Below, in pieces: positions 2,696 through 35,028 of a stretch of DNA of 36,307 nucleotides. How positions within the stretch are numbered: position 1 is the stretch's first letter; each line of letters begins with the position of its first letter. The stretch comes from Chitinophagaceae bacterium (lineage in GTDB: Bacteria; Bacteroidota; Bacteroidia; Chitinophagales; Chitinophagaceae): positions 1 through 36,307 of the forward strand of contig JAJTFY010000007.1 of NCBI GenBank assembly GCA_021299175.1, in the 5' to 3' direction. Under the pieces are notes generated by a model that saw nothing but the letters and a program-made list of their open reading frames with translations, made no database searches and was not told where the DNA came from. The translations under genes and the position numbers were made by a program.

Positions 2696-3754
2696 TTATT
2701 GTGCAGCCGCCATTCTTTGGTGATAGGCTTCAATCCTTTTGTGCATGATGCCGAACCAAACTGGAGGGATCAAAGAAAGGAGCAACATGCCAGGATATCC
2801 GGTAGGCATCTGTGGAGCGTTATCATGGTGCCTGAGCACCTGGTATTTTCTGCTGGCCAGGTAATGGTGATCACTGTGCCTGGACAATTCAAACAGCATC
2901 AGACGACCAAGGATATGGCTGCTGTTCCAGCTGTGTTCGGGCATGGCCCTTTCATATCCGCTCTCGGTCTTTTTTCTTTCCAATCCATAGTGTTCGATGT
3001 AATTGACTGTTTCCAGCAACAAAATACCCAATGCAGCTGCTGACAGAAAGCAAAGCAAGGCAAGGCTTCCAAAATAAATATAAACAGCCACTACAAGCAA
3101 CAGCTGGAGGCAGAGGAATTGAATCATCTGGTTGCTGAAATGCCAGACAGGTTTTCCATTTTTCCTTTGCTCATCTCCAGCAATTTTCCAGGCGGATAGG
3201 AATCCCATCAAAACAGACCTGCAATAAAAAAAATAAACGGGTTCACCTTTTCTTGCACTGCTGGGATCTTCATGGGTAGATACATTTTTATGATGGCCCT
3301 TGTTGTGTTCGATATAAAAATGCATGTAGAGTGAAGTGAGCAGCAATAATTTGGCAAGGTTTCTTTCATAAAGATTTTTCCTGTGCCCCAATTCATGGCC
3401 TACGTTGATTCCAAATGTTCCGCAGAGCAGTCCCATGGCAAAGATCCTTCCTGCCATTTCTAGTCCTGAAAGCGTGGGATCTTTTACGGAACCCAAAAAA
3501 TAATACAATGCAACAAATTGAAGTGGCACCATGATATAAAGCCAAATATCATAGAGCCTGTCATTTTTTGCCACCTGTTCTTCTGCCTCGCTCAAGTTTC
3601 CGGATGCAGCAGGAAATACCAGCTCAAACAGGGGGATGAACATGAACGCATAGAGCAACGGAAGGGCAATGGTCCATCCTGTATGCATGAATGCATAGAA
3701 GGAAAGAAAATACATACTGAGAGGAGCTGCAAATTTCAATGACCTGATGTGCAT
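2696..3754 (-). CDS. alkB: AlkB-type membrane non-haem di-iron alkane/fatty-acyl monooxygenase
   Basis: A 352-residue integral membrane protein with the histidine clusters of AlkB alkane 1-monooxygenases: GHELGHRK (HELGH at 120-124), EHNKGHH (149-155), NYIEHYG (251-257) and RHSDHH (292-297). The NYxEHYG motif separates AlkB enzymes from ordinary fatty-acid desaturases. By family knowledge it would hydroxylate terminal methyl groups of medium or long alkyl chains at the inner membrane, using electrons from a rubredoxin. No rubredoxin or rubredoxin reductase gene is visible in the window. It is the last gene of a minus-strand cluster, starting 10 bp after the OPT transporter stop, so it is probably co-transcribed with the two peptide transporters. 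Substrate is not readable from sequence; the gene symbol denotes family. Confidence 0.88.
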   Translation of the reverse strand: MHIRSLKFAAPLSMYFLSFYAFMHTGWTIALPLLYAFMFIPLFELVFPAASGNLSEAEEQVAKNDRLYDIWLYIMVPLQFVALYYFLGSVKDPTLSGLEMAGRIFAMGLLCGTFGINVGHELGHRKNLYERNLAKLLLLTSLYMHFYIEHNKGHHKNVSTHEDPSSARKGEPVYFFYCRSVLMGFLSAWKIAGDEQRKNGKPVWHFSNQMIQFLCLQLLLVVAVYIYFGSLALLCFLSAAALGILLLETVNYIEHYGLERKKTESGYERAMPEHSWNSSHILGRLMLFELSRHSDHHYLASRKYQVLRHHDNAPQMPTGYPGMLLLSLIPPVWFGIMHKRIEAYHQRMAAAQ

Positions 3755-20385: not shown

Positions 20386-20402
20386 TGATGGGTTTTATGA
20401 CG

Positions 20403-20410
20403 CAAAGGTG
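20403..20410 (-). promoter_or_regulatory. Possible -7 box for rfbA
   Basis: The minus strand reads CACCTTTG, one mismatch from TAnnTTTG, 17 bases before the rfbA ATG. No good TTG lies at the expected -33 distance, so this is a weak call. Confidence 0.35.
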
Positions 20411-20436
20411 AGAATTTTTCACAAGATTTCCGACTG

Positions 20437-20502
20437 TTAACATTGGCGTAACACACCCATTACAATTGGTTAACATGTGGCTAACCCTTGCTTAATGCTC
20501 GG
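20437..20502 (+). promoter_or_regulatory. Six tandem 11-bp direct repeats, probable PhoB/OmpR-type regulator array
   Basis: Reading in 11-base steps from 20437, successive units start TTAAC, GTAAC, ATTAC, TTAAC, CTAAC and TTAAT (unit starts 20437, 20448, 20459, 20470, 20481, 20492). The first and fourth are the most alike (TTAACATTGGC, TTAACATGTGG). The rest of each unit is variable, often ending in GG, GC or CC. An 11-bp direct repeat places each site on the same helix face, the pattern bound by PhoB/OmpR-family dimers. The array ends 4 bp before a -7-like box for the TonB receptor gene, where an activator would replace a weak -33 element. Which regulator binds is inference. Confidence 0.6.
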
Positions 20503-20506
20503 ATTG

Positions 20507-20514
20507 TTCCTTTG
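20507..20514 (+). promoter_or_regulatory. -7-like box for the TonB receptor operon
   Basis: TTCCTTTG matches TAnnTTTG with one mismatch. It lies directly after the 11-bp repeat array and 16 bases before ATG 20531. No -33 TTG is at the standard 18-20 bp distance, which fits an activator-dependent promoter. Confidence 0.45.
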
Positions 20515-20530
20515 CATATCAATTTTAAGT

Positions 20531-23350
20531 ATGCTGAAGCTGTTACAATCTAGGGTATTCTTTCTTTTCGCCATAACCATTTTGTTGTCTGGATCTGTTA
20601 TTGCTCAGGCTCAGAAAATTACTGGAAAGGTTGTCAATACAAAAAATGAGCCGATTGCTGGCGCCTCCATTTTGGTCGAAGAGATAAAAAAAGTGGTTGT
20701 TGCCGATGTAGAAGGTAATTTCAGTATTTCACTTGAAACTGGTAAAAAATACAATTTCACTGTTTCCAGTGTAGGTTTCAACACCAAGTCAGTATCAGAA
20801 ATTGAGGTCAGTATCAACGGAGACAACTCCATAGTCGTTGTTTTGGAGCCACAAACCAAAAACAGTGATGCCATCGTTATCAAGTCTACCCGCCGTCAGG
20901 AAAGCAGCATTGCCCTGTTGACATTTCAGCGCAGCAATACTGCCATGTCCAGCGGATTGGCGGCTGATTTTATCAGGAGAACCCCAGACAAGAATACAGG
21001 AGAAGTGTTGAAGCGTGTCAGTGGTGCTTCCGTACAGGATAACAAGTTTGTGATTGTTCGCGGATTGTCTGACCGCTACAATTCTGCCATGCTCAATTCA
21101 GCCCTGTTACCCAGCAGCGAACCAGACAAAAAAGCATTTTCATTTGATATGTTCCCTGCTGCATTGATTGACAACATCATCATCAACAAGACAGCTACAC
21201 CAGAGTTTACTGGTGAATTTTCAGGAGGGCTTGTACAAGTGAATACAAAAGATATTCCTACAAAGGATGTGCTTACTGTAGGATTTGGACTTGGATACAA
21301 TACCCAATCTACATTTAAGCCTTTCATCAGCAACCAGCGCAACCAGTATGATTGGCTGGGTTTTGATGATGGTACCAGAAGCCTCCCGGATAGCTTTCCC
21401 GCTACTGCGCAATTGTACCGGGTCTTGGGTAAAGATGCAGCAGGACTCAAAAAGCAGATTGAATTGACCCAACTTTTCAGGGGCGATGTGTATCAACAAC
21501 ATTCTACCAATGCAGCTCCTATCAAAACTTTCAACATCACCTACGCACAAAACCATAAATTGAAAAATGGTGCAAATCTTGGTGTATTGCTTGCAGCAAA
21601 CTACAGGAATTCTATGTTGGTATACAATGTTGAGCGTTCTTTTTATGAGACCAATGGAACAACAATATTCAACTACAATGATAATCAGAACCGCTACCAA
21701 ACCAATCTTGGTGCTGTAGCCAATATCACTTGGGTCAAAGGAAAGCATAAAATTTCTTTGAAGAATCTCTTCAATCAATTGTTTGAAGACAATTATTATA
21801 CAAGGAAGGGTTACAATACCAGCAGATTGAATGATATTCAATTTTATTCATCTTACCTCAACCAGCGTTCTCTCTACAGTGCTCAGTTGGAAGGAGAGCA
21901 CCAACTCACTGCCAAGGGCATCAAGTTCAAATGGAACGGCAATGCTGGATATAATTTGAAAAAGCAGCCAGACCTCAGGAGTGCCTTGTACGCCAGGACC
22001 ATCAATACCAACAATAAATTTGAAATCGATCCTGATGATACCAGAAGGTTTTACAGTGAGTTGAGTGATTACAGTTTTGGTGGTGGTGGACAGTTTATAG
22101 TTCCCATGAACTGGGGTGGTAAGGACAAGCAAACACTAAAGCTTGGTGGCTCCAGTCTTGGTAGGGTACGTGATTTCAAGAGCAGAATATTCCGTTACAA
22201 TACCACCAACTTAAATTCTTTTGTCGCTGCCAATGCTTTCAAGTCTGTTGAGTCCGCTTTCTTCTATGACAACATGGGTCAAAATGGATATATTTTAGAA
22301 GAGTTTACCAATAACCAAGACAGGTATTTTGGTGTGTCAGTATTGAATGCAGCTTATGGAATGATGGATAACAAAGTTGGGCCATTCAGGTTCATTTGGG
22401 GATTGCGTGCTGAGAATTTTCAGCAACTGCTCACATCCAAAGACCAGACTGGTTTGAGGAATACAAAACTCACTGAAAAGTGGGACCTTCTCCCATCCAT
22501 CAATATGCTGATCAATGCAGGCGACAAACAGAATATAAGGCTTTCGGCCAGCAGAACAGTTGCCCGTCCTGAGTTCAGAGAGATTGCAGAATTTGCGTTT
22601 TACGATTATGAGATGAACTATGGTGTGAAAGGTGATACCAGTCTTTTGAGAAGTTCAATTCTCAATTACGATGTTCGCTATGAATTGTATCCCAAGTCTG
22701 GTGAGGCAATAACCTTGGGTGCCTTCTATAAAGATTTTACTGATCCTATTGAATTCAGGCTTGACCCATCCAGCAATGGTGATGCCCGCCGTTATTTTTA
22801 CCGGAATGCTGTTAGTGCAACTACATTGGGTTTTGAGCTTGAAGTCAGGAAAGGGCTTGAGTTCATATCCCCATCTCTGAAAAACCTCAGCTTTTTTGGG
22901 AACTACACCTATATTCAATCAGAGGTTGTTTTCAAAGACCTGAGTGCGGGGAACAAGGAAGTGAAGGCCAACAGGCCATTGCAGGGACAGTCTCCTTATT
23001 TGATCAATGCAGGTCTTCAGTACAATGGATCTTCATTCAATGCTTCTTTACTGTATAATAAAGTAGGTGAAAGATTGACCCTTGTGGGCAATGAAGAATT
23101 TCCAAACGTTTATGAGCGTCCAAGAAACCAGTTGGATCTGCAATTGTCCAAAAAAGTACTTGCCGGTCAGGGTGAATTGAAAATCAATTTCGCCGACATC
23201 CTCAACAATGCCTTTTATTTCTACGAAAACGTTGACGAAGCTTCAGCGTACAAAGAAGGTGTGGACAGGCTATTCAATGCATACAAACCCGGATCTACCA
23301 TTACAGTAGGATTCACTTATGACTTCAACATCAGTAAAAAAAATAAATAA
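20531..23350 (+). CDS. TonB-dependent outer-membrane receptor with N-terminal carboxypeptidase-regulatory-like domain
   Basis: A 939-residue outer-membrane transporter. Signal peptide about 1-27 (ending IAQAQ). A CarboxypepD-reg-like beta domain spans 28-108 (ITGKVVNTKNEPIAGASILV). The plug spans about 115-240 and includes FVIVRGLSDRYNSAMLNS and SSEPDKKAFSFDMFPAALI. The rest is a beta-barrel ending in TITVGFTYDFNIS. The VRGLxDRYN/EPDxKAF pattern marks a receptor subfamily distinct from SusC. I chose ATG 20531; an upstream in-frame ATG at 20477 lies inside the repeat array and gives a non-signal-like start. A beta-helix lipoprotein follows 33 bp downstream. The substrate is unknown; phosphate or a phosphorylated compound is suggested by context only. 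Confidence 0.93.
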   Translation: MLKLLQSRVFFLFAITILLSGSVIAQAQKITGKVVNTKNEPIAGASILVEEIKKVVVADVEGNFSISLETGKKYNFTVSSVGFNTKSVSEIEVSINGDNSIVVVLEPQTKNSDAIVIKSTRRQESSIALLTFQRSNTAMSSGLAADFIRRTPDKNTGEVLKRVSGASVQDNKFVIVRGLSDRYNSAMLNSALLPSSEPDKKAFSFDMFPAALIDNIIINKTATPEFTGEFSGGLVQVNTKDIPTKDVLTVGFGLGYNTQSTFKPFISNQRNQYDWLGFDDGTRSLPDSFPATAQLYRVLGKDAAGLKKQIELTQLFRGDVYQQHSTNAAPIKTFNITYAQNHKLKNGANLGVLLAANYRNSMLVYNVERSFYETNGTTIFNYNDNQNRYQTNLGAVANITWVKGKHKISLKNLFNQLFEDNYYTRKGYNTSRLNDIQFYSSYLNQRSLYSAQLEGEHQLTAKGIKFKWNGNAGYNLKKQPDLRSALYARTINTNNKFEIDPDDTRRFYSELSDYSFGGGGQFIVPMNWGGKDKQTLKLGGSSLGRVRDFKSRIFRYNTTNLNSFVAANAFKSVESAFFYDNMGQNGYILEEFTNNQDRYFGVSVLNAAYGMMDNKVGPFRFIWGLRAENFQQLLTSKDQTGLRNTKLTEKWDLLPSINMLINAGDKQNIRLSASRTVARPEFREIAEFAFYDYEMNYGVKGDTSLLRSSILNYDVRYELYPKSGEAITLGAFYKDFTDPIEFRLDPSSNGDARRYFYRNAVSATTLGFELEVRKGLEFISPSLKNLSFFGNYTYIQSEVVFKDLSAGNKEVKANRPLQGQSPYLINAGLQYNGSSFNASLLYNKVGERLTLVGNEEFPNVYERPRNQLDLQLSKKVLAGQGELKINFADILNNAFYFYENVDEASAYKEGVDRLFNAYKPGSTITVGFTYDFNISKKNK

Positions 23351-24849: not shown

Positions 24850-26064
24850 TCAAGATTTTGTTGGCAAATATTCATAGACAACCTCGTAGGGCTGTTTGCT
24901 TAATTTTTTATCCATCTGCCCTAGATAAAGTACTTTTTTCTGTGGTGTGGGCTCACAAATGGTGTAAATGCTGCCATTGTGTTTGATGGTATTCCTTTTG
25001 GAGTTTTCCAGTTTTACGGCAACATTGATATGTCCAGGATAGCTGAGTACAATCATGGGGAGATTATAGACTTCTCGGACCAATGAAAAAAATAATCCTG
25101 CATGGTCTTCGCAATCACTCCATTCTGAAGCCAATGTTTCTTCTGGTGAAAATCTTTTCTCTCTCCCATAAATGGATGAATCAGGCTCATATGCAAATGC
25201 ATTTCTTACCAGGAACATGATGTATTCAACTCCTTCTTCCTTTGTTTTTTCTTTGAGCTTTAATTGTAGTGATGGGATGAGGGATGAGTAAGTGACTTTA
25301 CTAAACGGTATGTTGAATTGAAATCGATAGTCTGTAACAGGGTAGTTGATAAAATAATCCTTTACCTCAGGGAATATTTTTATATCATGTTTGGCGATTT
25401 GCCGTTTGTATTTGAATTCAATGGTCTTGCTCACGTATTTTTCTTCCGGTGAATCAGGCATGTTAGCAATCATGTAGTTAAAATCTCTTCCATTTTCTAC
25501 AAGGGATTGTTGGATGGGTTGTGGGGTTATTTTTTCAATGGGTATATCATAATTGTAGTCATGATAATTCATGCATACATACTGCTTTTGATCCATCATT
25601 TTGATGGGAATATTGTAAATGGTTGAGTTGCTTTTGACATAGAGCAATAATTTGTCGTCAATGGTACAAAGCAGAGGGTTGAATCCACTTTTGGCCAAAA
25701 AAAACCATTTGCAATAGGTATATCCCCAATAGTCTTTCTCTTTAGGGATCAGCTGTTGAGATACCTTTCTCATCAGTTGATAATAATGCCAATCTGATAA
25801 ATGTAGCCTATCTCTGATTGTTGATAATTCGGGAATGATGTCAGCGCAATAAGTATCCAGTATTTTTATGGTGCTTGCGAAACTGTTTGGATTGTTATGG
25901 CTGTCTGGAAATTCCTCTGGAAGATTCTGGGCTTTGATTGAATATTCCTTTCCCAGAAAGGAAAAATGAATCTCACGCGTCCCATCAAAGCCATCTGCTT
26001 TGGCTGAAATTGTCCAAAAATATGCTACAAAACAGATGAATATGAATTTCCTCATGGCTTTCAT
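24850..26064 (-). CDS. Exported transglutaminase-like (papain-fold) protein
   Basis: A 404-residue protein with a signal peptide (about 1-22, MKAMRKFIFICFVAYFWTIS). The C-terminal third shows a transglutaminase-like core: Cys318 in EWSDCEDHAGLFFSLVR, His345 in SYPGHINVAV and an acidic Glu371 in YTICEPTP, where Asp is more usual. Such domains act as cysteine proteases, amidases or binding modules. The N-terminal 280 residues, rich in Tyr and Phe, are unrecognised. ATG 26064 gives MKAMRKF; ATG 26055 is also possible. It is a single gene, convergent with the lipoprotein and divergent from ppk1 with a 95-bp gap in which I see no clear promoter pair. Confidence 0.8.
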   Translation of the reverse strand: MKAMRKFIFICFVAYFWTISAKADGFDGTREIHFSFLGKEYSIKAQNLPEEFPDSHNNPNSFASTIKILDTYCADIIPELSTIRDRLHLSDWHYYQLMRKVSQQLIPKEKDYWGYTYCKWFFLAKSGFNPLLCTIDDKLLLYVKSNSTIYNIPIKMMDQKQYVCMNYHDYNYDIPIEKITPQPIQQSLVENGRDFNYMIANMPDSPEEKYVSKTIEFKYKRQIAKHDIKIFPEVKDYFINYPVTDYRFQFNIPFSKVTYSSLIPSLQLKLKEKTKEEGVEYIMFLVRNAFAYEPDSSIYGREKRFSPEETLASEWSDCEDHAGLFFSLVREVYNLPMIVLSYPGHINVAVKLENSKRNTIKHNGSIYTICEPTPQKKVLYLGQMDKKLSKQPYEVVYEYLPTKS

Positions 26065-26159: not shown

Positions 26160-28259
26160 ATGGTGAATAAGTCGACTTTTGTACAGCGCGATATCAGTTG
26201 GCTCAGTTTTAACGCAAGGGTTTTACAGGAAGCCAACGATCCAACAGTTCCCATCAACCAAAGAATTCGCTTCCTTGGAATTTTTTCGAACAACATGGAT
26301 GAATTTTTTCGTGTCCGTGTGGCCACGTTGAAAAGGATGGCAGAATTTCGTTCTGCGAAAACCAAGCTCAATGTTCACATGGAAGATGCGGTTTCAGAGG
26401 TGTTGGTTGAATTGCTCCATATTGTCTTGAAACAGCAAAGTGAATTTGACAGGATCTGGGTCAATATTCAGGCTGAGTTGAAAAAAAACAAGGTTTTTAT
26501 CAAGAATGATCAACAACTCACAAGAGACCAAAAACGCTTTGTTGTTGATTTTTTTGAAAAAGAAGTCCGTTCCAATATCATTCCATTGATGATTGAGAGT
26601 TTGCCAGAACTTCCCTATCTGCGGGACAAGAGCATTTATCTTGGCGTGGTGATGCAGAAGAAAAACTCTGCATACAAACAACAATATGCGTTGATTGAGA
26701 TCCCCTCCAAAACACTTGGTCGATTTGTCAAATTGCCAACAGACAAAAAAGAAACGCATATCATTTTACTGGAAGATATTGTCAGGGTCAATCTTCCCTA
26801 TATATTTTCTTATTTTGGTTATGACCATTTTGAGGCACATATTTTTAAGGTCACCAAAGACGCTGAATTAGATCTTGACAACGATATCAGTACCTCGCTG
26901 GTGGAAAAAATGCAAAAAGGGCTAAAAAAAAGGCGTAAAGGAAAGCCAGTAAGGTTTGTTTACGATAAGGAGATGAACAGTGGACTGTTGAACTACCTCA
27001 CCAAAAAGCTGAAACTCAACAGCAAGTCAAGCATCATCCCTGGAGGACGTATCCATAATTTTAAACATTTTATGGATTTCCCTGATGTATTTCCTGCTTC
27101 TCAAAGGAGAATGACGGCCATTCCTCATCCGGATTTGAATTCCGCCATACGTGTAACGGATGTAATTGATAAAAAAGATGTGTTGCTCCATTTTCCCTAT
27201 CACTCATTCAATGCCATCATCGATTTATTGAGAGAAGCTGCCATCGATCCTGATGTTAAATCCATCAAGATTACTGCTTACAGGCTTGCCTCAGAATCCA
27301 AGGTAATCAACGCTTTGGTCAATGCAGCCCGAAACGGAAAAAAAGTTGAAGTGATGCTGGAGTTAAAGGCCAGGTTTGATGAAGAGGCAAATCTTGAATG
27401 GAAAACAGTCCTGGAGGAAGAGGGCGTAAAAGTTATTTTGGGCATTCCTAACATGAAAGTACATGCAAAAATTTGCATCATCAATAAGCGTGTGCAAAAC
27501 AAAACCATTCAATATGGATTTGTCAGTACCGGGAACCTTAATGAGAAAACGGCTCATTTCTACGGAGATCATTGCTTACTTACTTCCAACAGGAGCATTA
27601 TGGCTGATATCAACCGGATCTTCTACTATATTGAAAATCCGGTTTCACATGCCGCTTCTCTGGAGGAGTGTAAAACCTTGTTGGTAAGCCCGGTGGGCAT
27701 GCGTAAGAAAATAACTGAGCTTGTAGAAAAGGAGATCAAGGAAGCAAAAAAAGGGTTTCCTGCGTCCATTACACTGAAATTGAATTCTCTCAGCGATGTT
27801 AATTTGATAGAAAAGCTCAATCAGGCTGCTGCGGCTGGAGTGGAAGTCAACCTGATTATCCGCGGCATATACTCAGCAAAAAGGCAAACCAAGAAAAAAC
27901 AGGTCTCCCCTTATGCCATCAGCATTGTTGATGAGTACCTGGAGCATGCCAGGGTTTTGGTTTTTCATAACGCGGGCAATGTCTTGGTTTATATTTCCAG
28001 TGCAGATTGGATGGTGAGGAATCTTGATCATCGCGTAGAGGCAGCATGTCCAATTGTTGATAACGACCTAAAGAAGGAATTGTTGGAGATATTGAAAATC
28101 CAATTGGCTGATAATGTAAAAGCAAGAATTTTGGATCCTGAGTTTATCAACAACTATGTATCTTCACCTGGTAAAAAACGATTGCGTTCACAGCAGGAGA
28201 TTCATAACTATCTGGTAAAACAACAACCCATAAAGAAACGTGCGACTGGCAGCAATTGA
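26160..28259 (+). CDS. ppk1: Polyphosphate kinase 1
   Basis: A 699-residue enzyme that makes inorganic polyphosphate from ATP, reversibly. It opens with FVQRDISWLSFNARVLQEA and FLGIFSNNMDEFFRVRV, the PPK1 N-terminal signature. The phosphorylated histidine is His435 in MKVHAKICI. A second conserved His466 lies in STGNLNEKTAHFYGDH. Length is normal. It overlaps ppx by 20 bases, so polyphosphate synthesis and breakdown enzymes are made from one message. ATG 26160 follows a 95-bp gap to the divergent transglutaminase-like gene. Confidence 0.97.
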   Translation: MVNKSTFVQRDISWLSFNARVLQEANDPTVPINQRIRFLGIFSNNMDEFFRVRVATLKRMAEFRSAKTKLNVHMEDAVSEVLVELLHIVLKQQSEFDRIWVNIQAELKKNKVFIKNDQQLTRDQKRFVVDFFEKEVRSNIIPLMIESLPELPYLRDKSIYLGVVMQKKNSAYKQQYALIEIPSKTLGRFVKLPTDKKETHIILLEDIVRVNLPYIFSYFGYDHFEAHIFKVTKDAELDLDNDISTSLVEKMQKGLKKRRKGKPVRFVYDKEMNSGLLNYLTKKLKLNSKSSIIPGGRIHNFKHFMDFPDVFPASQRRMTAIPHPDLNSAIRVTDVIDKKDVLLHFPYHSFNAIIDLLREAAIDPDVKSIKITAYRLASESKVINALVNAARNGKKVEVMLELKARFDEEANLEWKTVLEEEGVKVILGIPNMKVHAKICIINKRVQNKTIQYGFVSTGNLNEKTAHFYGDHCLLTSNRSIMADINRIFYYIENPVSHAASLEECKTLLVSPVGMRKKITELVEKEIKEAKKGFPASITLKLNSLSDVNLIEKLNQAAAAGVEVNLIIRGIYSAKRQTKKKQVSPYAISIVDEYLEHARVLVFHNAGNVLVYISSADWMVRNLDHRVEAACPIVDNDLKKELLEILKIQLADNVKARILDPEFINNYVSSPGKKRLRSQQEIHNYLVKQQPIKKRATGSN

Positions 28260-29121
28260 TATTGGAACAAACGCAAGCAGGCTTCTGATTTCAGAAGTTA
28301 CTGTGAACGAGGAGGGTGTAGCAAGTTTCAATAAGCTTAATCTGATCAGGGTACCCCTTCGCTTGGGATTTGATGTATTTGAAACCGGTGAGATTTCCAA
28401 GGAAAAAAAGCACATGATCCTTCAGACCATGAAGGCCTATGCACACCTCATGAACGCCTACGGGGTTGATAAGTCAATTGCTGTTGCCACCAGCGCAATG
28501 CGGGATGCAAAAAACAGGAATGAGGTAGTTAGAAAAATATTTCTTGAAACAGGTATCAACATAAAGGTGATCTCTGGTGATTTTGAGGCATCCTTGATTT
28601 ATGAATCACATGTCGCAGAAAACCTCAATGCCAACAACAATTATCTGTATGTCGATGTTGGAGGTGGTAGTACTGAGCTTACATTTTTTTCCAATAATAC
28701 CCTGCTATACAAGCGTTCATTTAATATTGGGACCATTCGTTTGCTCAAGAACATGGTTACAGATGCTGACTGGCAAGAAATGAAAGAGGCACTGCGTGAA
28801 AATTTGCGCGGTCAGAAAAATACGATTGCCATAGGAACAGGAGGCAATATCAACAAAGTATTTTCTCTCAGCAAGAAAAAAGACGGCAAGCCTTTGCACA
28901 TTGATGTGCTCAAGGATTATTACAAAGAGTTTTCAGCCTGCACATTGGAAGATAGGATTCGCCTTTACAATCTACGGTCCGACAGGGCTGATGTGCTTGT
29001 GCCTGCGCTCATGATATACCTTCAAGTCATGAAATGGGGCAACATGGAAGAGATTCTGGTTCCCAAGATTGGATTGGCCGATGGCCTCATACAGCACCTG
29101 TATGCTGAAACCCGTGCATAA
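28240..29121 (+). CDS. ppx: Exopolyphosphatase / Ppx-GppA family phosphatase (short form)
   Basis: A 293-residue actin-fold phosphatase with AAIDIGTNASRLLI (4-17) and VDVGGGSTELTFFSNN near 132, the phosphate-binding loops of the Ppx/GppA family, plus AIGTGGNINKVFSLSK near 195. It hydrolyses terminal phosphates of polyphosphate, or guanosine pentaphosphate. Only the two core domains are present; the C-terminal HD-like domain of the E. coli enzyme (about 500 residues) is absent, as in many short forms. The start is GTG at 28240, inside the ppk1 end, chosen because it gives MRLAAIDIGTN at the expected place. Confidence 0.92.
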   Translation: MRLAAIDIGTNASRLLISEVTVNEEGVASFNKLNLIRVPLRLGFDVFETGEISKEKKHMILQTMKAYAHLMNAYGVDKSIAVATSAMRDAKNRNEVVRKIFLETGINIKVISGDFEASLIYESHVAENLNANNNYLYVDVGGGSTELTFFSNNTLLYKRSFNIGTIRLLKNMVTDADWQEMKEALRENLRGQKNTIAIGTGGNINKVFSLSKKKDGKPLHIDVLKDYYKEFSACTLEDRIRLYNLRSDRADVLVPALMIYLQVMKWGNMEEILVPKIGLADGLIQHLYAETRA

Positions 29122-30948: not shown

Positions 30949-31998
30949 CTATTCCTTGATTTTCTTTAATGTAAAACCAAATGTAGTGCCAATTCCTGGA
31001 GTACTCCTTGCATGGATGAATTCACCATGGGCTTCGATGATATGCTTGCAAATGGCAAGTCCCAAGCCAGTACCCCCTATGTTTCTGCTTCTGCCATAGT
31101 CCGTTCTGTAGAATCTTTCGAAGATTCTTGGTACATGTTCTTCTGCGATACCAATCCCATCATCTGTTATTTCTACCAGAATATTTTTGTCATCTGTCTT
31201 GTAAATACTGGCTTCAACTTTTCCCTCCTGGTTTCCATACTTGATGGCGTTGTCAACCAGGTTGATCAATACCTGTCTGATTTTCTCTTTGTCTGCATAA
31301 ACCCTGATGGGTTGTTCGCAACCTTTCTTGATCAGGCAATGGATGTTTTTGACCGCTGACTTGATGGTCAATGATTCATACACATCATTGATCAGGTCTT
31401 GAATGATAAAATTCTGGTAATGGAGTTCTTGTTTTCCACTTTCGAGTTTTGTTATTTCATCGAGGTCGGAAATCAGGTTGATCAATCTTTCTGTGTTCTT
31501 GTAAGCATTGCTGAGGAATTTCTGGCTAACCTCCGGATTGTCCATGGCTCCTGCCAAAAGGGTTTCCAGATAGCCCTGTATGGCAAAGGCTGGGGTTTTA
31601 AATTCATGGGACAGGTTTTGAAGAAATTCTTTTCTGAAGGCTTCATTTTTTTCAAGCAATTCCATCTCCGCCTTTCTCTGGTCGGCCCACTGCAGAACAT
31701 CTTCACCAACCTCTTCCAATCCTTGCTTTGGCAATACTTTTTTCTGGAAAAATTCCTCTCTTTTCGATGCTTTTGTTTGGTAAATGAGTTTGTAAATCAA
31801 TTTGATCTGCCGTTGAATGAATTTTTCAACCAGAAACTGCACCATCCAAAAACTGAAACAAAAAATGATCAATAAGGTAGCAAGACCCAGCAATAGGCTT
31901 TTTGCAATCCATCCGACCATCAGAGAGGCCAATAGTCCTATCATGGTAGCCGAAAACAACCCAATCTTTTGAGGCGAATAGTTCTTAGCATCGAACAT
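30949..31998 (-). CDS. PhoR-like sensor histidine kinase
   Basis: A 349-residue inner-membrane kinase. Two closely spaced membrane helices lie at about 14-32 and 34-55, with almost no periplasmic loop. A HAMP-like linker is followed by the HisKA domain with His131 in NLSHEFKTPAFAIQGY. The ATPase domain has INLVDNAIKYG, DDGIGIAEEHVPRIFERFYR and GGTGLGLAICKHI. The tiny periplasmic part means it probably senses through a partner or the membrane, as PhoR does. I chose ATG 31998; a TTG at 32019 would add seven residues. It follows its regulator by 39 bp in one operon. Confidence 0.93.
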   Translation of the reverse strand: MFDAKNYSPQKIGLFSATMIGLLASLMVGWIAKSLLLGLATLLIIFCFSFWMVQFLVEKFIQRQIKLIYKLIYQTKASKREEFFQKKVLPKQGLEEVGEDVLQWADQRKAEMELLEKNEAFRKEFLQNLSHEFKTPAFAIQGYLETLLAGAMDNPEVSQKFLSNAYKNTERLINLISDLDEITKLESGKQELHYQNFIIQDLINDVYESLTIKSAVKNIHCLIKKGCEQPIRVYADKEKIRQVLINLVDNAIKYGNQEGKVEASIYKTDDKNILVEITDDGIGIAEEHVPRIFERFYRTDYGRSRNIGGTGLGLAICKHIIEAHGEFIHARSTPGIGTTFGFTLKKIKE

Positions 31999-32037
31999 AC
32001 TGCAATCTACAGTATTCAATGCTTATTTAGGCCTATC

Positions 32038-32718
32038 TCAGATGTCAAATTTATAGCCAACACCCTTGACGGTGGTAATGCAATCCACCCCCAGTTTCTG
32101 CCTTATTTTTCTGATGTGTACGTCAATTGTCCTGTCTCCAACAATTACCTCACTTCCCCAGATTTGGTTTAGGATCTCATTCCGCAAAAAGACCCTTCCA
32201 GGCTTAGAAGCCAGATAATTCAGCAATTCAAACTCTTTTTTGGCAAGGCTAATGGGCTCTCCTTTGTAGTAAACCATGTATTCTTCAGGTTCAATCCTGA
32301 GCTCACCCACCTCAACGGCCTTGGATTCTTCAGGCTTTGCAACCCTTCTGAAAAATGCGTTCACTTTTGAAACCATCACTTTAGGGGAGATGGGTTTGCT
32401 GATAAAGTCATCCGCCCCGAACTCTAGTCCTTTGACATGAGAGAGTTCATCGCTCAATGCGGTAAGGAAAACAATAAGGGTATGTTCGAATGCTGGCTGA
32501 GCCCTCAGTATCTTACAGACTTCGATACCATTTTTCTTGGGCATCATGATGTCCAGGATGATCAGGTCAGGACTGGTTTCCCGGGCTTTCTGCAGTGCCT
32601 GGTCTCCATCTTTGGCAGTAACAACATCATATCCATGAAGCTGAAGATTGTAGGTGATGATTTCCAGAATATCTGGCTCATCATCTGCAATCAGGATTTT
32701 TTTTGTGGCTGGCGCCAT
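32038..32718 (-). CDS. PhoB/OmpR-family response regulator
   Basis: A 226-residue regulator with a receiver domain (about 6-120; acidic Asp12/Asp13, phospho-acceptor Asp56 in LDIMMP, Thr86, Lys108 in SKPIS) and a winged-helix DNA-binding domain (about 135-226, RVFLRNEILNQIWG and RTIDVHIRKIRQKLG). PhoB-type proteins bind 11-bp direct repeats as head-to-tail dimers. I chose ATG 32718; a TTG at 32739 lies within the -7 box. It is first in the operon with the kinase and divergent from the 32842 gene. Confidence 0.95.
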   Translation of the reverse strand: MAPATKKILIADDEPDILEIITYNLQLHGYDVVTAKDGDQALQKARETSPDLIILDIMMPKKNGIEVCKILRAQPAFEHTLIVFLTALSDELSHVKGLEFGADDFISKPISPKVMVSKVNAFFRRVAKPEESKAVEVGELRIEPEEYMVYYKGEPISLAKKEFELLNYLASKPGRVFLRNEILNQIWGSEVIVGDRTIDVHIRKIRQKLGVDCITTVKGVGYKFDI

Positions 32719-32736: not shown

Positions 32737-32768
32737 CAAAGTTAACCGGATGGCCTTTCATATCACAA
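32737..32768 (-). promoter_or_regulatory. Promoter of the response-regulator/kinase operon
   Basis: The minus strand has TTG at 32768-32766, a 21-bp spacer, and a perfect TAACTTTG (TAnnTTTG) at 32744-32737. The predicted start is close to 32730, about 12 bases before ATG 32718. The box also excludes the upstream TTG start of the regulator. Confidence 0.55.
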
Positions 32769-32806
32769 TTAAGCTGGATTATTAAATTGTTAAGCCATCT
32801 CCAAAG

Positions 32807-32841: not shown

Positions 32842-35028
32842 ATGTTGTCTTTGCGTTTGATTATATCGATTTTATTGCCATTCATGGCTTTTTCGGCTGC
32901 TGGACAAGACAGCGGCCATGACCTCATTGATATCAGAAGGGTTAAATTGCATGAAGACATAGACGGCTTGCAGTCAAAGATTTGTGCCCTGGACGGCAAT
33001 TCCGATAAAATGATTGTCATCAGCAGGGACCTGGATCTCGATTTGTTGCTGACAGATATTTATACCAGGCAAACGGATGCGCTGCAGCTAGAAATAGAAA
33101 AAAACGTTGCAGCAGACCATAGGATCAAAGTCAAATATTTGTCTGGTTTGAACATCCTTTTGGAAGAATTGCTACGCTCCTTTCGCTCCAATACACTGCC
33201 TGCCATTGAAGCGGCAACACTATTGGAAGCGTACAGACAATATATGTGGCTGGACATCAGGGGATTGGGTATTGCAGGTATTGTTGATCATTTCCCCTAT
33301 AATGTCAACAAGATCTTGCTGGGAGAAAATTCGGTTTTTTTTGAAAACCCTGCCCTGGAATCTGGCAGAGTAACCATGTTCAGGCAGTTTGCAGCGCTTC
33401 ATCCTGATCAGGTACTTTCCAGGATTGAGCCCTACCTCAACGCAAGTTTTGCTGATAGTCTTATCGTAGAAGCCGCCCATCATTACCCTGGGAATTTTTA
33501 CAATTATGCTGCAGCTGCTGCTACACCCATTGGCAAGAAAATAAGGTCAATTGACGACACCCTGGTCCAACTGATTACAGGCATTGCTGACGAAAGTTCA
33601 GGGAGATTGATTTTTCCATTTTTGCATTCAATCCTCAAAGGAAGACTCAGTATTGACAGCATAAAATCTGCAGCTTTAGACGAACTCGCCTATTATCGTT
33701 TGCTGGTCAATACCCAGATCCAGTTCATGGATGACATGCTTGCTAAGGATACCCCAATCCTCATTCAGGAAATGGGAATCATGATCAAGCGAAAAGCTGA
33801 AGAAATATTTATCAATGAAATCAATGCCTTGCATGATGAGCCAGACGCTGTTCGCTTCAAGATTTTAGAGCCGCTTGGAGCGGCAGAATTGTATTATATC
33901 ATCGTGACTGGCGAAGATGTCATCTATACTTCGAGCTACACCGGTGTATACAACCGCATGATGGCACGCATGCAAAAGCGTGGGGGTGATGCATTGCTCA
34001 TGGAAGTGAGGTTTGACCGATTCAAGAAATTTGTCAGGATGGCGGCTGCTTACAATAAACTCGATCTTTTCTTGTCCAGCATGCCGGCAGAAAATGCGCA
34101 ACTCCTGATCAAGGGCTTTGTCCGTGGTTTGGAAAAAAACCTCAACCTTGAGGACGCTGTCGATGTTGCTGATTCCTATGGAAGCATCAGTAACGCAGCC
34201 ATCAGGAATTTGGTAAAAGTTGAAATTGCAAACAACCTGGAACAGCAAAATTCGTTTGGTAATGAAAGGGGCATTGCCATTTATGATATACTCAAGTTGC
34301 TCTTCATGTCCGCCTCAGACAGTTCCCAATTGCTTTCACTCAAGTACGGCATCCCACCAGTATACGCACTTCCGTTTTCCAATCTTTCTGACAGTGCCGG
34401 GCGCATTGTACAGCAGGTTTTTTTCTATGGGGATAAAGACGGAAAAGAGTCTTTTGCCAATTTCATTTCCATGTTCAGGGGCAAGAAAGAATGGAAAATT
34501 ATCCAAGAGGAAAACTGGGTTGAAATCAAATCAATCTTGGGTCAGCCTGTATGGATCTTTGCCAATCTTCCCTTGGATAATACGATGGGAGACGATCCGG
34601 ATGCAAAAGCACAAGGCTTACTGGTTGACTATTTGCATGAGCAGGGGCTCGAACCGACAATTGTCATTCACCGTGGCCACAGTTATCACCTCAAGTATAC
34701 GGTCAGCCAGCTTTCTGCATCTGCCAAAATCATTGTTTTGGGATCTTGTGGTAGTTTTCAGAACCTCAATACAGTGCTGAACATTTGCCCAGACGCCCAC
34801 ATCGTTTCATCGAAAGAGGTGGGTACCAAGCTTGTCAATGAGCCAGTATTAAGAATGATCAATGAGTCTGTCCGTTTAGGGCAGGCGGTAGACTGGATCA
34901 AGATCTGGCATCAACTAGAGAAACAATTCAATACAGGTGTTGCAAAAGAAAGGTTCGATAATTATATTCCTCCACACAAGAACCTCGGAGCCTTGTTCAT
35001 CAAGGCTTTTGCCAACAGGAACCATTAA
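32842..35028 (+). CDS. Large exported protein of unknown function with a possible caspase-like His/Cys C-terminal region
   Basis: A 728-residue protein with a signal peptide (about 1-21, ending FSAAGQ). Residues 25-500 appear mainly helical, with few recognisable features. From about 560 the profile turns to alternating strands and helices: PVWIFANLPL, TIVIHRGHSYHL (His610, His613, His616), then AKIIVLGSCGSFQNL (Cys636), then AHIVSSKEVGTKLVNEPV. A His motif after one hydrophobic strand and a Cys after the next, about 23-26 residues on, is the arrangement of clan CD peptidases (caspase, gingipain, separase, CHAT). I do not recognise the family, and the rest of the fold cannot be checked by eye. 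It is divergent from the two-component operon and 16 bp upstream of the ABC exporter gene. Confidence 0.7.
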   Translation: MLSLRLIISILLPFMAFSAAGQDSGHDLIDIRRVKLHEDIDGLQSKICALDGNSDKMIVISRDLDLDLLLTDIYTRQTDALQLEIEKNVAADHRIKVKYLSGLNILLEELLRSFRSNTLPAIEAATLLEAYRQYMWLDIRGLGIAGIVDHFPYNVNKILLGENSVFFENPALESGRVTMFRQFAALHPDQVLSRIEPYLNASFADSLIVEAAHHYPGNFYNYAAAAATPIGKKIRSIDDTLVQLITGIADESSGRLIFPFLHSILKGRLSIDSIKSAALDELAYYRLLVNTQIQFMDDMLAKDTPILIQEMGIMIKRKAEEIFINEINALHDEPDAVRFKILEPLGAAELYYIIVTGEDVIYTSSYTGVYNRMMARMQKRGGDALLMEVRFDRFKKFVRMAAAYNKLDLFLSSMPAENAQLLIKGFVRGLEKNLNLEDAVDVADSYGSISNAAIRNLVKVEIANNLEQQNSFGNERGIAIYDILKLLFMSASDSSQLLSLKYGIPPVYALPFSNLSDSAGRIVQQVFFYGDKDGKESFANFISMFRGKKEWKIIQEENWVEIKSILGQPVWIFANLPLDNTMGDDPDAKAQGLLVDYLHEQGLEPTIVIHRGHSYHLKYTVSQLSASAKIIVLGSCGSFQNLNTVLNICPDAHIVSSKEVGTKLVNEPVLRMINESVRLGQAVDWIKIWHQLEKQFNTGVAKERFDNYIPPHKNLGALFIKAFANRNH

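Follow-up and report, generated by a model that had tools for sequence, protein, structure and literature searches.

A conserved array of 11-bp direct repeats as a probable PHO-box-type operator before a TonB-dependent receptor gene in a Chitinophagaceae bacterium

The receptor locus and its six-unit array

The window, by which is meant the whole stretch of DNA analysed (36,307 bases), carries an array of six direct units that is followed by a −7-like promoter box, a TonB-dependent receptor gene and a putative lipoprotein gene (Table 1). Genes for polyphosphate kinase 1 and an exopolyphosphatase of the Ppx/GppA family provide the context further downstream, and beyond these, on the opposite strand, lie genes for a PhoR-like histidine kinase and a PhoB-like response regulator, with a two-unit box before the latter. 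Two other proteins of the window, of 404 aa (24850–26064, minus strand) and 728 aa (32842–35028, plus strand), returned no Pfam family over cut-off. The former has a weak transglutaminase-like match, and a protein similar to it by eye adjoins the cluster in one relative (G019; L158, 15212–16183).

Table 1. Features of the receptor and regulator loci, with positions in the window
Feature	Position	Strand	Description or basis
Operator array	20437..20502	+	Six 11-bp direct units, consensus KTAACA-N5; read from sequence
Array unit 1	20437 (start)	+	TTAACATTGGC; direct reading
Array unit 2	20448 (start)	+	GTAACACACCC; direct reading
Array unit 3	20459 (start)	+	ATTACAATTGG; direct reading
Array unit 4	20470 (start)	+	TTAACATGTGG; direct reading
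Array unit 5	20481 (start)	+	CTAACCCTTGC; direct reading
Array unit 6	20492 (start)	+	TTAATGCTCGG; direct reading
−7-like promoter box	20507..20514	+	TTCCTTTG; direct reading; one mismatch to TAnnTTTG
TonB-dependent receptor, 939 aa	20531..23350	+	ATG at 20531; PF13715, PF07715, PF14905
Putative lipoprotein, 463 aa, probable beta-helix	23384..24775	+	Translation; model pLDDT 86.9; weak Foldseek matches
Polyphosphate kinase 1 (ppk1), context	26160..28259	+	Domain/family matches
Ppx/GppA-family exopolyphosphatase, context	28240..29121	+	Domain/family matches
PhoR-like histidine kinase, probable regulator partner	30949..32019	−	HisKA, HATPase_c
PhoB-like response regulator, proposed array binder	32038..32718	−	Best NCBIfam model TIGR02154 PhoB
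TAnnTTTG match before regulator gene	32737..32744	−	TAACTTTG; TTTG 53 bp from start of two-unit box
Two-unit box before regulator gene	32778..32793	−	TTAACAATTTAATAAT; KTAACAATT + weaker second unit

With regard to the lipoprotein, a single-sequence fold prediction was of no use. A Foldseek search with the model listed in Table 1 returned weak matches (best E 0.02, none at E ≤ 0.001), the top ones being polysaccharide lyases, epimerases and tailspikes, all of which we take to be beta-helix folds, and its sequence had a single match, at E 0.16, amongst solved structures.

A preliminary description of this DNA had listed six five-letter unit starts with their coordinates, all of which are exact on direct reading; the starts are right, but the unit core is better given one base longer, as KTAACA. 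The same description had the array ending 4 bp before a −7-like box, as is the case (the sixth unit stops at 20502 and the box begins at 20507), and that box lacking a good −33 element. None separate from the array was found by eye, and the sole sigma-70-type match in a consensus scan of 20386–20531 falls within the array itself.

A scan that assumes no motif, made with six units of five columns at periods 8–14, gives the array a score of 26, the highest in the window, with no other site of at least 24 in the 36,307 bases save for overlapping registers of the array. When the window was dinucleotide-shuffled 300 times, this score was never equalled at period 11, and was equalled once when any of the seven periods from 8 to 14 was allowed. 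The array is absent from the list that Tandem Repeats Finder returns for the window, and when phage records were searched for distant similarity to the promoter, nothing matched. The TAACTGA repeats of some Bacteroidetes (PMC4679880) were considered as a candidate and rejected, being, as that paper presents them, repeats of a 7-base word that in the organism concerned stand mostly just upstream of start codons.

According to PMC4415409, a PHO box is composed of direct 11-nt units, each with seven well-conserved positions; where at least two such units with approximately seven conserved positions are looked for, the array supplies six. The 81 units taken from 16 receptor upstreams are most informative at positions 2–6 and invariably have A at position 4 (81/81), these units having been chosen by matrix, which favours apparent conservation.

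Conservation and helical phase before orthologous receptors

The receptor was sought in 60 relatives, and both the array and its register recur in the same-genus upstreams obtained; the named relatives with a receptor are metagenome-assembled genomes, several of them labelled Chitinophagaceae. Six loci (L002, L008, L010, L012, L016 and L024) supplied 33 units for the training of a weight matrix and were excluded from the held-out test, in which 22 receptor upstreams were scored at every period from 8 to 14. The held-out upstreams average 20.35 at period 11, compared with 6.5–6.7 at the six other periods, and period 11 is best in 21 of the 22, the exception being L030. The top score amongst 111 background upstreams is 10.2, a value raised, if anything, by the inclusion of L032 and L033, which were fetched because of a two-unit match. 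Represented in the held-out set are receptors close to that of the window (L003–L006 and L021, 93–97 % identity) as well as seven distant ones (L025–L031, 34–41 % identity). A porin gene precedes the array in relative G019.

Conservation upstream of orthologous receptors extends to other families of the class, for which receptor matches were found in 114 of 149 genomes, with 29 loci scored and the remainder left out. Period 11 is strictly best in 24 of these 29 upstreams, and 18 exceed 10.2 (one of the 29 does so at period 10 too). Those 18 have 2 to 7 scored units, such that the six units of the window array are long compared with the two to four given as usual in the preliminary description, but unexceptional. 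The receptor upstream of G047 has a coding-strand score at background. All receptor counts omit L022, which lacks the N-terminus, and L023, with 30 bp of upstream sequence, and many of the receptor rows, together with all 30 regulator rows considered below, come from same-genus relatives and are thus not independent.

The position of the array relative to the promoter is similarly retained. For both TTCCTTTG and the corresponding element before the regulator gene, TAACTTTG, we take TAnnTTTG to be the −7 consensus; the TTTG of TTCCTTTG begins 19 bp past the start of the last array unit. In 28 receptor upstreams examined, 26 had a TTTG in range, and the distance from the last strong unit to it is 19 or 30 bp (8 modulo 11) in 25 of these, and therefore the array keeps one helical face towards the promoter. 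The boxes of the regulator gene and of the porin sit further upstream of TTTG than does the receptor array.

The regulator and other sites of the same kind

The proposed binder of the array has the receiver and winged-helix Trans_reg_C domains that a PhoB response regulator requires. It reaches 228.9 bits with TIGR02154 (cut-off 296.2) and 208.6 bits with the Bacteroidetes PhoB model (cut-off 270), and so the PhoB-like gene of the preliminary description stands by its domains and its best model, but lies below the curated PhoB cut-offs. Of the proteins of its own genome, it scores highest with the Bacteroidetes PhoB model (208 bits, ahead of 173 for the next), two further full-length PhoB-model matches being found on contigs C162 (173 bits) and C125 (162 bits). 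For the neighbouring kinase, the PnpS, WalK and PhoR models lead the NCBIfam matches, all below their cut-offs.

When the regulator was sought in the 60 relatives, matches were found in all of them, orthologues and paralogues taken together. The best match in relative G038 (54 % identity) has genes for PstS, two permease-size proteins, PstB and PhoU before it and a kinase gene after it; the two permease-size genes we read, by position only, as pstC and pstA. Since this pst–phoU-linked regulator is also under the curated PhoB cut-offs (218.8 and 219.6), the failure of the window regulator to reach them says little. Linkage to pst, phoU or other phosphate genes is thereby seen both in G038 and in the window, where ppk1 and ppx are nearby. 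The recognition region changes little across 33 aligned sequences, and amongst the matches listed, those to regulator and receptor are no more than 20 kb apart in 24 of the 48 genomes with both, a count that is limited by fragmented assemblies.

The sequence KTAACAATT is present upstream of the regulator gene in all 30 same-genus orthologues. The second unit of this box, of a weaker ATAAT type, lies 11 bp on and is under-scored by the matrix; the period-11 score is strictly best in 9 of the 30 regulator upstreams and exceeds 10.2 in none. A pattern of NTAAY-N6-NTAAY within 110 bp upstream, picked post hoc after the sequences had been viewed, is found for the regulator gene in 30 of 30 cases, the porin in 11 of 13 and background in 1 of 90. 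By manual count, the start of the two-unit box is 52 or 53 bp from TTTG in 24 of 30 regulator and 9 of 13 porin upstreams, which would bring these boxes close in phase to the receptor arrays. As judged from its sequence, TTAACAATTTAATAAT is a probable site of autoregulation of the regulator gene.

That the same 11-bp pattern would recur at other promoters, as proposed in the preliminary description, is borne out by placement, the sites including a Porin_O_P–DUF47–Pit operon, the regulator gene and many pstS genes of relatives; the numbers are mixed, with five units enriched in the genus but shorter patterns showing no excess over the backward control. Allowing up to three mismatches, the five-unit pattern gives 40 matches over 60 genomes versus 17 for the backward control, or 35 versus 9 when G046 is set aside (5 versus 8 in that genome), and 32 versus 5 in same-genus genomes. 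By manual count there are 30 distinct five-unit places, 18 of which are before a receptor match and 2 before a porin. Shorter forms are not enriched: in the genome of the window, three units with one mismatch give 1 match versus 10 backward-control matches, two exact units 2 versus 9, and three exact DTAAY units 5 versus 5, whilst four units with two mismatches give 39 versus 39 across 41 genomes of the genus. The DTAAY matches comprise four at the porin locus and one inside a SusC-like gene, the latter of which we take as chance.

In the genome of the window, the five-unit pattern has two places only, the receptor array and contig C56, where it precedes genes for Porin_O_P (PF07396), DUF47/PhoU_div (PF01865) and a PHO4/Pit transporter. 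Amongst porin upstreams, from which the weak porin matches L143–L148 were left out, period 11 strictly outscores every other period in 9 of 13 and does not in the other 4. The C56 array region (L122, 4863–5106) is itself composed of five units, then three, then two.

The genus of the window is without a Pst system by the models used, and pstS upstreams were for this reason tested in relatives. In the genome of the window the PstS model gives only a 32-bit match (cut-off 206.6), and with the PstB model, run on 40 genomes, 3 are over cut-off, none of them amongst the 25 from this genus. PstS matches occur in 43 of 60 genomes, with 30 loci scored and the remainder left out. The occurrence of the array before pstS, named as support in the preliminary description, was looked for across the class: upstream of over-cut-off PstS genes (n=15), period 11 is strictly best in 10 and not in the other 5, with scores above 10.2 in 5, as opposed to 3 and 1, respectively, for below-cut-off binding proteins (n=15). 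Coding-strand scores are at background for the second pst-like cluster of G038 and its porin, and for the DUF47–Pit pair of G019. Placement before phosphate-acquisition genes is seen for Porin_O_P–DUF47–Pit and for PstS (10/15), with exceptions in G038, G019 and G047.

Two divergent arrangements were also observed. In G038 (L149; C1, 2813–11138), the pst–phoU–regulator–kinase cluster is divergent from a DUF47–Pit-like gene pair, and the intergenic region between these groups has short KTAAC repeats on both strands. In G020 (L124; C7, about 3539–3576), KTAAC repeats on both strands lie between divergent genes for a 928-aa receptor-family protein and a calcineurin-like phosphoesterase.

Relation to known systems and interpretation

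Direct repeats of approximately 11 bp are familiar from Bacillus PhoP and cyanobacterial SphR boxes, which have TTAACA-like and CTTAACCT-like units and belong to other phyla and other promoter types. Riemerella is itself a member of the Bacteroidota. In R. anatipestifer, the most conserved nucleotides of the PhoP DAP-seq motif are TTTAACA, and the promoters that gave gel shifts include those of a TonB receptor and of phoPR (PMC9603813). Both the core and the receptor promoter are like those of the window array, making this an analogy. Unlike the array, Riemerella PhoP has a far broader set of sites (583 peaks, covering the upstreams of 764 genes), and no 11-bp repeat architecture was found described in that paper, the main text of which does not use the term 'direct repeat' (PMC9603813). 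In B. fragilis, PhoB is reported to bind the pstC promoter, in a paper whose main text does not contain the word 'motif' (PMC3547664). The PHO box of E. coli PhoB, like its counterparts in other bacteria, resembles the array in its 11-nt direct units, in the head-to-tail binding of PhoB-family proteins, as proposed for the array, and in its location upstream of phosphate-acquisition genes (PMC4415409), but has a CTGTCAT core, whereas the window array has KTAACA, six contiguous units and a −7 box of the TAnnTTTG kind.

A similar gene arrangement is that of the PhoBR cluster (PUSIV) of Flavobacterium johnsoniae, which contains a glycosyltransferase, OprP, PhoR, PhoB, a TonB receptor and a pectate-lyase-like lipoprotein (PMC8115612). 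Both it and the window contain genes for PhoR, PhoB, a lipoprotein and a TonB receptor with the three Pfam families listed in Table 1, and each includes a glycosyltransferase gene, that of F. johnsoniae being from another Pfam family. Taking position and fold type together, the window lipoprotein is the likely counterpart of the F. johnsoniae low-phosphate lipoprotein FII. Upon phosphate depletion, the transcript changes given in the FC column of that paper, the text of which speaks of log2FC, are 8.02 for the receptor (Fjoh_0545), 9.91 for the lipoprotein (Fjoh_0546), 3.06 for PhoB and 0.76 for PhoR. OprP, which is encoded inside the F. johnsoniae cluster, shows no induction (FC −1.3, p-adj 0.245), whereas in the genome of the window the porin is elsewhere, with Pit, behind an array. 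The term 'Pho box' does not occur in the main text of PMC8115612, and in the open-licence PMC literature, so far as its available text goes, no PHO-box consensus for Bacteroidia was found beyond the Riemerella PhoP motif.

Conservation, phase and placement before phosphate genes all support the PhoB-family activator reading of the preliminary description, and we regard it as very probable that the array is a PHO-box-type operator for the PhoB-like regulator of the window, activating the receptor at low phosphate. Binding of the array by this particular regulator, and induction at low phosphate in this organism, we infer. As 11-bp direct repeats are general for the OmpR family, and the genome encodes the two further full-length PhoB-model matches on C162 and C125, the array could conceivably be the operator of another OmpR-family regulator that answers to redox, envelope stress or a different signal, and for which phosphate genes are only part of the targets; the authors of the Riemerella study saw a likeness between their PhoP motif and the E. 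coli ArcA motif (PMC9603813). This is unlikely given that both five-unit arrays of the genome precede outer-membrane uptake genes, one of them in an operon with Pit, that a box of the same kind stands before the regulator gene in all 30 orthologues, and that a pst–phoU cluster of G038 contains the best match to the regulator in that genome. Far less probable still is a repressor site, or brake, to which one might be drawn by the array spanning the place where a −33 element would be: no separate −33 element is seen that could be blocked, the −7 box is left free with its phase to the array kept, and the F. johnsoniae counterpart genes rise at low phosphate, according to PMC8115612. A chance or low-complexity AT-rich repeat without function, with which the two- to four-unit patterns being no commoner than backward controls would agree, is contradicted by the shuffles, background upstreams, period controls and conservation across families, and can be discounted almost entirely.

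For the PHO-box-type operator, the course of events that we infer would begin with phosphate scarcity, upon which the neighbouring PhoR-like kinase would phosphorylate the PhoB-like regulator. Each unit would then be bound by one regulator molecule, in head-to-tail order along a single side of the helix, and the molecules closest to the promoter would occupy the place of the missing −33 element and recruit RNA polymerase. The TonB-dependent receptor and the beta-helix lipoprotein would in this way be switched on for the uptake or capture of phosphorus compounds, with the length of the six-unit array making for strong, cooperative induction. Two-unit boxes 52–53 bp from TTTG would place the porin–DUF47–Pit operon, and the regulator gene itself, under the control of the same regulator.

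The kind of element is already known, the host group is one for which no described consensus was found in the literature searched, and the reach of the element is wider than the preliminary description suggested. A broader proposal, which we advance tentatively and with somewhat more doubt than conviction, is that KTAACA-N5 serves as the PHO box throughout the class Bacteroidia, in two geometries, namely multi-unit arrays 19 or 30 bp from TTTG (receptor) and two-unit boxes 52–53 bp away (regulator gene, porin–Pit operon), on nearly the same face, with unit number and distance setting how strongly and in what order genes are induced. In the genus of the window, Pst-less by the models used, the receptor–lipoprotein pair, with the longest unbroken array, would on this proposal be a main phosphorus-scavenging output. 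Phosphate uptake in the genus may rest on Pit and outer-membrane systems, and the lack of Pst may be the reason why the longest arrays precede the receptor and the porin–Pit operon. If the PHO-box reading of the array is correct, it would provide a workable model of the binding site through which phosphate control acts in Bacteroidia, would make phosphate regulons readable from genomes and metagenomes, and would allow array-bearing receptors and lipoproteins without known cargo to be assigned to phosphorus acquisition.
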